Below, in pieces: positions 21,711-21,815 of a DNA stretch of 43,659 bases (within the stretch, counting starts at the first letter, position 1; each line of letters begins with the position of its first letter). The DNA lies in IMG/VR virus record IMGVR_UViG_3300009157_000027, positions 1 to 43,659 of that record. One strand, given 5' to 3'. The DNA comes from a virus. A program made the translations under genes and the position numbers. The notes beneath the pieces are model-generated. The model did not search any database. It had not been told where the DNA came from and saw only the letters and a program-made list of their open reading frames with translations.

Positions 21711-21787
21711 AGAAGATGTTCTCTTGGTGTCGTACAGTCACGTCTCCAAGAGAGGAATCCGTACAGTCACGAGTTCCTCATCTTCTC
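21711..21787 (-). ncRNA. Twin-loop leader of the NUMOD1-like gene B
   Basis: Two hairpins show the same 12-base loop sequence CGTGACTGTACG: GAGGAA/TTCCTC (21752-21779) and CTCTTGG/CCAAGAG (21721-21752). The stems differ, the loops are identical. An outer pairing (21779-21787 with 21710-21718) closes both. The AGGAGG ribosome site follows. The layout suggests binding sites for an RNA-binding protein. Confidence 0.6.
21731..21771. repeat. 12-bp direct repeat in hairpin loops
   Basis: CGTACAGTCACG occurs at 21731-21742 and 21760-21771, 29 bases apart, each in the loop of a different hairpin. Confidence 0.9.
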
Positions 21788-21789
21788 TC

Positions 21790-21815
21790 ACTATAAGACT
21801 TGTAAATATGACGAA
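21790..21815 (-). promoter_or_regulatory. Repeated phage promoter
   Basis: TTCGTC, 14 bases ending ACAAGTCT, TATAGTG. It drives gene 21331-21690. Confidence 0.75.

Follow-up and report, generated by a model that had tools for sequence, protein, structure and literature searches.

A small structured phage RNA displaying one candidate protein-binding hairpin twice beside the gene for a predicted membrane-anchored NUMOD/HTH-like protein

The stretch analyzed in the present study (hereafter, the window) is the whole 43,659-nucleotide IMG/VR phage record IMGVR_UViG_3300009157_000027, from a large actinobacteriophage group sharing the primase/polymerase phrog_4210. Among cultured phages, its closest relatives infect Gordonia (Captrips, for example, at 56% protein identity), followed by Rhodococcus phage ReqiPoco6 and by Streptomyces and Arthrobacter phages. 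A megablast search of the central 15 kb against phages returned no match. The locus under study contains two genes of one protein family, gene B and, downstream of it, gene A, which has its own promoter and structured leader. A twin-hairpin RNA (family B) precedes gene B, and a second structured RNA (family C) lies immediately upstream of family B (Table 1). The names "family B", "family C", and "family D" were coined in this analysis. Elsewhere in the window, positions 2983-338 (minus strand) encode an 881-aa phrog_4291 protein annotated as an RNA-dependent RNA polymerase, which bears an HTH at each terminus and matches RdRP weakly; it is possibly a phage RNA polymerase.

Table 1. Features of the window around the twin-hairpin RNA
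Feature	Position	Strand	Characteristics and evidence
Family C RNA	21934-21821	minus	Own promoter and U-run; fold z -5.4; relatives L012, L018, L019, L025, Qui
Family C hairpins	21919-21889, 21888-21862; third 21858-21843	minus	GUG-CAAAA-CCCG..CGGG-A-CAC in the first two
Family B RNA promoter (predicted)	21790-21815	minus	TTCGTCATATTTACA upstream element, fixed spacing, -10 TATAGT at 21795-21790
Twin-hairpin RNA, family B	21789-21708	minus	Outer stem around two hairpins; fold z -4.9; relatives L012, L070
Hairpin 1, family B RNA	21779-21752	minus	First CGUGACUGUACG copy at 21760-21771
Hairpin 2, family B RNA	21752-21721	minus	Second CGUGACUGUACG copy at 21731-21742
Gene B, 119 aa, predicted membrane-anchored NUMOD/HTH-like protein	21690-21331	minus	SD 21699-21691; AlphaFold2, fold matches, weak Pfam
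Family X structured leader of gene A	21268-21152	minus	Terminator-like U-run at end; fold z -2.8
Gene A, 138 aa, second predicted membrane-anchored HTH-like protein	21135-20719	minus	Alignment, weak HTH_3, homologs in relatives

The preliminary description of this locus reported two hairpins with a shared 12-base loop. The hairpins are real, their coordinates and stems are as it claimed, and the two stems are mutually unrelated in sequence. The strand required correction because the RNA is on the minus strand, like all genes there. The 12-mer CGUGACUGUACG is identical in both hairpins; only its hexaloop, GACUGU, is a loop, and the three bases on either side form a 3-bp stem (CGU/ACG). Furthermore, both hairpins are enclosed by an 11-bp outer stem (21789-21779 paired with 21718-21708), an addition to what had been reported. 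This stem starts at the presumed transcript start, immediately 3' of the -10 element; the 5' end of the RNA is GAGAGAAGAUG, and the partner strand is CAUCUUCUUUC. The RNA is followed by the SD sequence and gene B, with no strong U-run in between. The minimum energy of the fold was -40.2 kcal/mol against a shuffled mean of -26.0 kcal/mol, and none of 200 shuffles reached it. The 12-mer occurs at just two sites in 43.7 kb, with one mismatch allowed (expected, 0.13; 0 of 100 shuffles). A simple chance repeat was ruled out by the fold z score, the rarity of the 12-mer, and the restriction of paired hairpins to one promoter in relatives (see below). The original observation is real, and larger than first described.

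A scan with Rfam 15 revealed no match above the curated threshold to the RNAs described here; the sole match in the window was a Pistol ribozyme at 9933-9879 (minus strand, 44.2 bits). Further Pistol ribozymes were noted at L043 19262 and L018 14920, and the same scan of five relatives yielded tRNAs and Pistol alone.

The predicted family B promoter fits a group-wide motif, TTCGCAnAAATTACAnGnCcTATAATGAGA, that is common to the relatives (189 seed instances, all of identical spacing) and precedes small ORFs as well as small RNAs. In the small RNAs behind it, a GAGA start pairs with UCUC ahead of the terminator. Since a screen for this outer stem alone was weakly specific (106 of 521 promoters versus 74 of 521 shuffled), we relied on families B, C, and D instead. 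A phage-wide promoter with 12 matches in the window, from 24261 to 6354 (minus strand), has TCGCA...TTACA at a fixed distance from TATAATGAGA; it does not have the usual -35 spacing, and a phage factor may be needed. tRNAs or tRNA-like RNAs occur in the same frame of promoter and outer stem at L007 2809 and L067 561 and in L072, L076, and L090 (335), and these belong to Rhodococcus and Gordonia phages. In the window, a promoter-driven RNA with a terminator-like end and a repeated GCUGAUA was noted at 23379-23272 (minus strand), with similar RNAs at L014 4387 and L018 2993, and an intergenic gap at 11036-10963 (minus strand) contains a promoter match with a closed, structured RNA behind it. Many annotated intergenic gaps in these phages house predicted promoters and structured RNAs.

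Eighty relatives were collected through their DNA polymerase, and 84 loci obtained in this way entered the gene tally given below. Family B was found in two further lineages, L012 and L070, and the evidence for it comes from these two and the window; L004 (IMGVR_UViG_3300027722_000042) is, across this stretch, either the window virus itself or one nearly identical to it, and it was excluded as non-independent. The L012 RNA has GAGGAGACGUGAGUGUACGACACCUC and GUUCCUAAGACGUGAGUGUACGACAUUGGAAC within the same outer-stem frame, and L070 (with near-identical contigs) has two GAUUGU hairpins. The family B loop is GANUGU, in which N is the same in both copies of a phage and different between phages: C/C in the window, G/G in L012, and U/U in L070. 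When aligned by the loop, the six hairpins share one register of three regular pairs, three irregular pairs, and an outer helix. Six of the ten pairs were altered on both sides, and the covariation score was not reached by any of 500 shuffles. In the relatives, paired GANUGU hairpins closed by U-A occur only directly 3' of this promoter, and a control with permuted hexaloops gave 0.06 matches on average. The preliminary description had taken the repeated loop for a recognition site kept in duplicate, a view to be abandoned if relatives lacked the duplication. In both L012 and L070, the hairpin is present twice, on stems of new sequence and with the variable loop base matched within the phage, which favors that view. 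A scan of the genome collection for the family B motif revealed no cellular homolog. Other motif matches were rejected: those in L091, L093, and L095 are GT-rich repeats of unrelated phages, that in L092 is apparently coding, and those in L096 and the bacterial sequences L097-L103 are without the fold or without the promoter motif.

Two further families were recognized. The family C RNA of the window has a duplicated core, GUGCAAAACCCGUUCAGCGGGACAC, inside differing flanking pairs, and no ORF is apparent in its transcript. The family follows one design (GUG, a five-base A-rich strand, an inner stem, a loop, the inner stem, A, and CAC) in the window, L012, L018, L019, and L025, with three copies in Arthrobacter phage Qui; in L012, families B and C stand in tandem. 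Eight of the 11 family C pairs had changed at both positions, and none of 500 shuffles attained the covariation score. The family C scan missed L012 and L018 and may miss others. Mimicry of a CRISPR repeat (the repeat-like CCCGUUCAGCGGG) was considered for family C and dropped because the inner stem is not conserved in relatives. Family D, with three hairpins, occurs in L043, L050, and cultured phages of Gordonia and Rhodococcus. Its nine sequences yielded 33 pairs, 19 of which had compensatory change. As in family B, a mismatch, one pair, and a mismatch separate the outer from the inner stems. The family D model found copies outside its training set in L043 (5.9e-14) and, as a second copy, in Pepy6 (3.8e-15), beside the gene. 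The distance between the cores of the second and third hairpins was 0.085 within a phage versus 0.47 between phages (permutation p 5e-5).

At least three RNA families (B, C, and D) thus have one design: a dedicated phage promoter, an outer stem that begins with the first nucleotides of the transcript, two or three hairpins repeating one core on different stems, and usually a terminator. An RNA of the family X type (GAGACACGAAUGUGUAGGUGAAAGACCUACC...) follows the same promoter in L014, L016, L017, L018, L020, L053, L071, L075, and L088, and this widespread RNA looks like a further uncharacterized RNA family.

The proteins of genes A and B share a short basic N terminus, a predicted membrane helix, a linker, and a C-terminal domain with the motif TGxxFxSQxxAAxxxGxxxxxISxHLNG. 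AlphaFold2 modeled the C-terminal domain with a pLDDT of about 95 and the N-terminal half poorly. The fold matches of the C-terminal domain included sCTP-23166 (8b6e; Z 8.6 over 51 residues), I-HmuI (1u3e; Z 7.6), and I-TevI (1i3j; Z 6.3), and its close matches bind DNA, not RNA. Judging from the model, this domain qualifies as a NUMOD-type nucleic-acid-binding fold. Pfam PF22083 (I-HmuI_NUMOD-like) matched seven of 24 members (best E 1e-5), with the window protein below the gathering score (16.2 against a cut-off of 27). A sequence search of solved structures gave weak matches only. The predicted N-terminal helix and the NUMOD-type fold bear out the earlier assignment of the downstream protein as membrane-anchored and DNA-binding-like. 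Pepy6 gp065 is annotated as periplasmic, and the annotation of Gordonia phage orthologs of gene B (L006 gene 54 and others) varies among HNH endonuclease, membrane protein, and HTH. A promoter and a structured RNA also appear to be nested within the coding region of gene A (window 21029-20952, minus strand), with similar nested RNAs at L011 5130, L012 5281, L019 17664, L025 5102, L043 5774, L050 4533, and L083 3877. The DNA of the nested promoter also codes for the last part of the membrane helix (AGITxLIMRG), and L011 and L043 swap complementary stems in the nested RNA with the frame kept.

Since NUMOD and HTH domains bind DNA, and several family D cores are near-palindromes present in three copies beside the gene, the hairpins may be incidental to an operator or anchoring array of double-stranded sites for the HTH domain. 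However, the unrelated outer stems stay complementary through compensatory change, a G-U pair is retained in eight of the nine family D sequences, and the array is placed exactly between promoter and terminator. The core is, moreover, absent elsewhere in the Captrips genome and likewise elsewhere in the window record. We consider such a DNA-level array to be highly improbable.

Among 84 loci fetched by DNA polymerase, and not chosen for the gene, 14 hold the NUMOD/HTH gene. A family B, C, or D RNA was recognized in nine of these 14 (L006, L012, L018, L019, L025, L043, L050, L070, and L090) and, in a tally over scans of the 84 loci, in none of the 70 loci without the gene. The five gene-bearing loci without a recognized RNA of these families count against a partnership. 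In these loci, tandem-hairpin RNAs whose repeated core spans 11 nt or more lay within 400 nt of the HTH gene in five of seven cases versus 28 of 486 for other promoters (p 1.9e-5).

The preliminary description proposed that the protein could bind its own mRNA. In the window, the RNA does form the 5' leader of gene B; it is separate from the gene in L070, in L012, and in Gordonia phages. The leader position, together with a layout of structured RNA, U-run, SD, and ATG in L019, L025, L012, and gene A of the window, would also suit a cis-acting leader or attenuator, in which the RNA controls the downstream gene through a change in structure or termination, with or without bound protein. However, the family B RNA of L070 ends in its own U-run approximately 240 nt ahead of the gene; between that of L012 and the gene lie the family C RNA, a terminator, a further promoter, and one more RNA; and the family D RNAs of Gordonia phages are separate transcripts located after the gene. 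No alternative fold was identified. We regard control purely in cis as unlikely. Because the RNA is usually a separate transcript in these relatives, a trans-acting RNA ligand appears to fit better than a purely cis-acting leader. In Captrips, there is an overlap between the family D RNA and the start annotated for the following ORF.

The close pairs of cultured phages provide the best hint of direct recognition, as judged from sequence comparisons. In three of four such comparisons, divergence within a generally conserved stretch is highest in the segment coding for the HTH and in the RNA. Between Captrips and Artorias, DNA identity was 0.96 upstream, 0.97 in the N-terminal part of the gene, 0.68 in the HTH segment (108 nt), 0.87 in the RNA, where the differences include the cores, and 0.93 downstream. 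The corresponding values for Gravy and Odesza were 0.90, 0.90, 0.57, 0.37, and 0.94, and the promoter between their HTH segment and RNA was 93% identical. The HTH segment was 66% identical between Captrips and Perkunas versus 82-88% around it; it did not stand out between Artorias and Perkunas (0.80 versus 0.86). The low RNA identity in the Perkunas comparisons reflects an inserted second RNA. More distant phage pairs were uninformative, and a Mantel test of core against HTH distance across seven phages was not significant (r 0.50, p 0.085). The joint divergence was seen in phages of the D and E types, not in family B itself. It could also come from recombination tracts swapping neighboring segments; since the RNA and the HTH segment are adjacent on the DNA, one tract could swap both.

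Cores that differ between close phages also fit an arms race in which the copies soak up a host RNA-binding protein, nuclease, or defense protein, the adjoining gene being a mere neighbor. Small RNAs with several sites, made from strong phage promoters, would serve as such decoys, and a stand-alone transcript requires no cis target. However, a decoy predicts neither the association with one gene family nor the joint divergence with the HTH segment, and we judge this explanation quite unlikely. The concerted change of RNA and HTH domain in cultured relatives suggests an RNA-protein partnership that has not been described.

Several known systems resemble parts of this arrangement. MS2-type coat-protein operators and autoregulatory leaders likewise use a hairpin whose loop is constant and whose stem is irregular; in one of the present RNAs, it lies just 5' of the ribosome site of the candidate binder. 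In contrast, each of the present RNAs is a closed, multi-branched structure that repeats the hairpin two or three times and is usually a separate transcript, and the candidate partner is membrane-anchored; the site lies within the mRNA of that partner in the window but not in L070, L012, or the family D phages. CsrB and RsmZ are likewise small RNAs with repeated protein-binding hairpins, which are candidates here. However, the family B loops are GANUGU, families C and D also have no GGA theme, and the candidate binder is encoded adjacently and has a NUMOD/HTH fold rather than being CsrA. The HK022 put and lambda nut sites similarly place two hairpins at or near a phage transcript start, whereas the present RNAs are mostly own terminator-ended transcripts, for which antitermination in cis is not an evident role. 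The NUMOD domains of the homing endonucleases I-HmuI and I-TevI share their fold with the C-terminal domain of the protein encoded beside the RNA; this protein has a membrane helix instead of a nuclease domain.

Type III toxin-antitoxin RNAs (ToxI and AntiQ) are also a repeated unit beside a small gene, variable between relatives and sometimes in the order promoter, RNA, terminator, and gene, which is the order in L019. By analogy, the RNA may be the antitoxin of a membrane toxin, and the two resemble a cognate pair that changes fast. However, the repeat is limited to the hairpin core, the outer stems and flanks differ, and there are no whole or pseudoknotted direct repeats. The Pfam scans revealed no ToxN/AbiQ-type endoribonuclease family, and the listed fold matches no such fold, the N-terminal half being poorly modeled. 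We consider an RNA antitoxin very unlikely.

RNAs with several protein-binding sites are a known kind; families B, C, and D seem to be new, as do their common architecture and their association with the gene for a membrane-anchored NUMOD protein. Searches of the open-access literature, covering tandem-hairpin RNAs of phages, noncoding RNAs of Gordonia phages, and conserved elements between genes, gave no description of them, and an earlier one elsewhere is possible. The ncRNAs that Rhodococcus phage WC1 expresses at high levels come from a different phage cluster. The small RNAs of this phage group seem undescribed.

We give roughly even chances to the explanation that the family B RNA is a multi-site ligand of the neighboring membrane-anchored NUMOD/HTH protein. 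The small structured RNA would display the same candidate protein-binding hairpin twice, and its partner would most likely be the protein encoded next door, the C-terminal domain of which would bind each copy. As a multi-site ligand, the RNA may hold, titrate, or inhibit the protein. Because gene B shares the transcript in the window, its product could, in addition, target its own mRNA. We infer this binding and its consequences from the computed structures, the duplication in relatives, the agreement of copies within a phage, the gene association, and the joint divergence. More speculatively, and with doubt prevailing, the two may form a diversifying specificity pair: each phage would have its own membrane-anchored NUMOD reader and a matching multi-copy RNA, and the pair would serve to discriminate self and non-self among related phages (as in exclusion of a second phage) or to anchor phage RNA at the membrane.

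The design is shared by whole RNA families beside one protein family, including those of the cultured Gordonia phages Captrips and Artorias and Arthrobacter phage Qui. If the pairing holds, it would assign a role to a protein family whose annotations range from HNH endonuclease and membrane protein to hypothetical, and these phages would provide a set of natural RNA-protein pairs of differing specificity.
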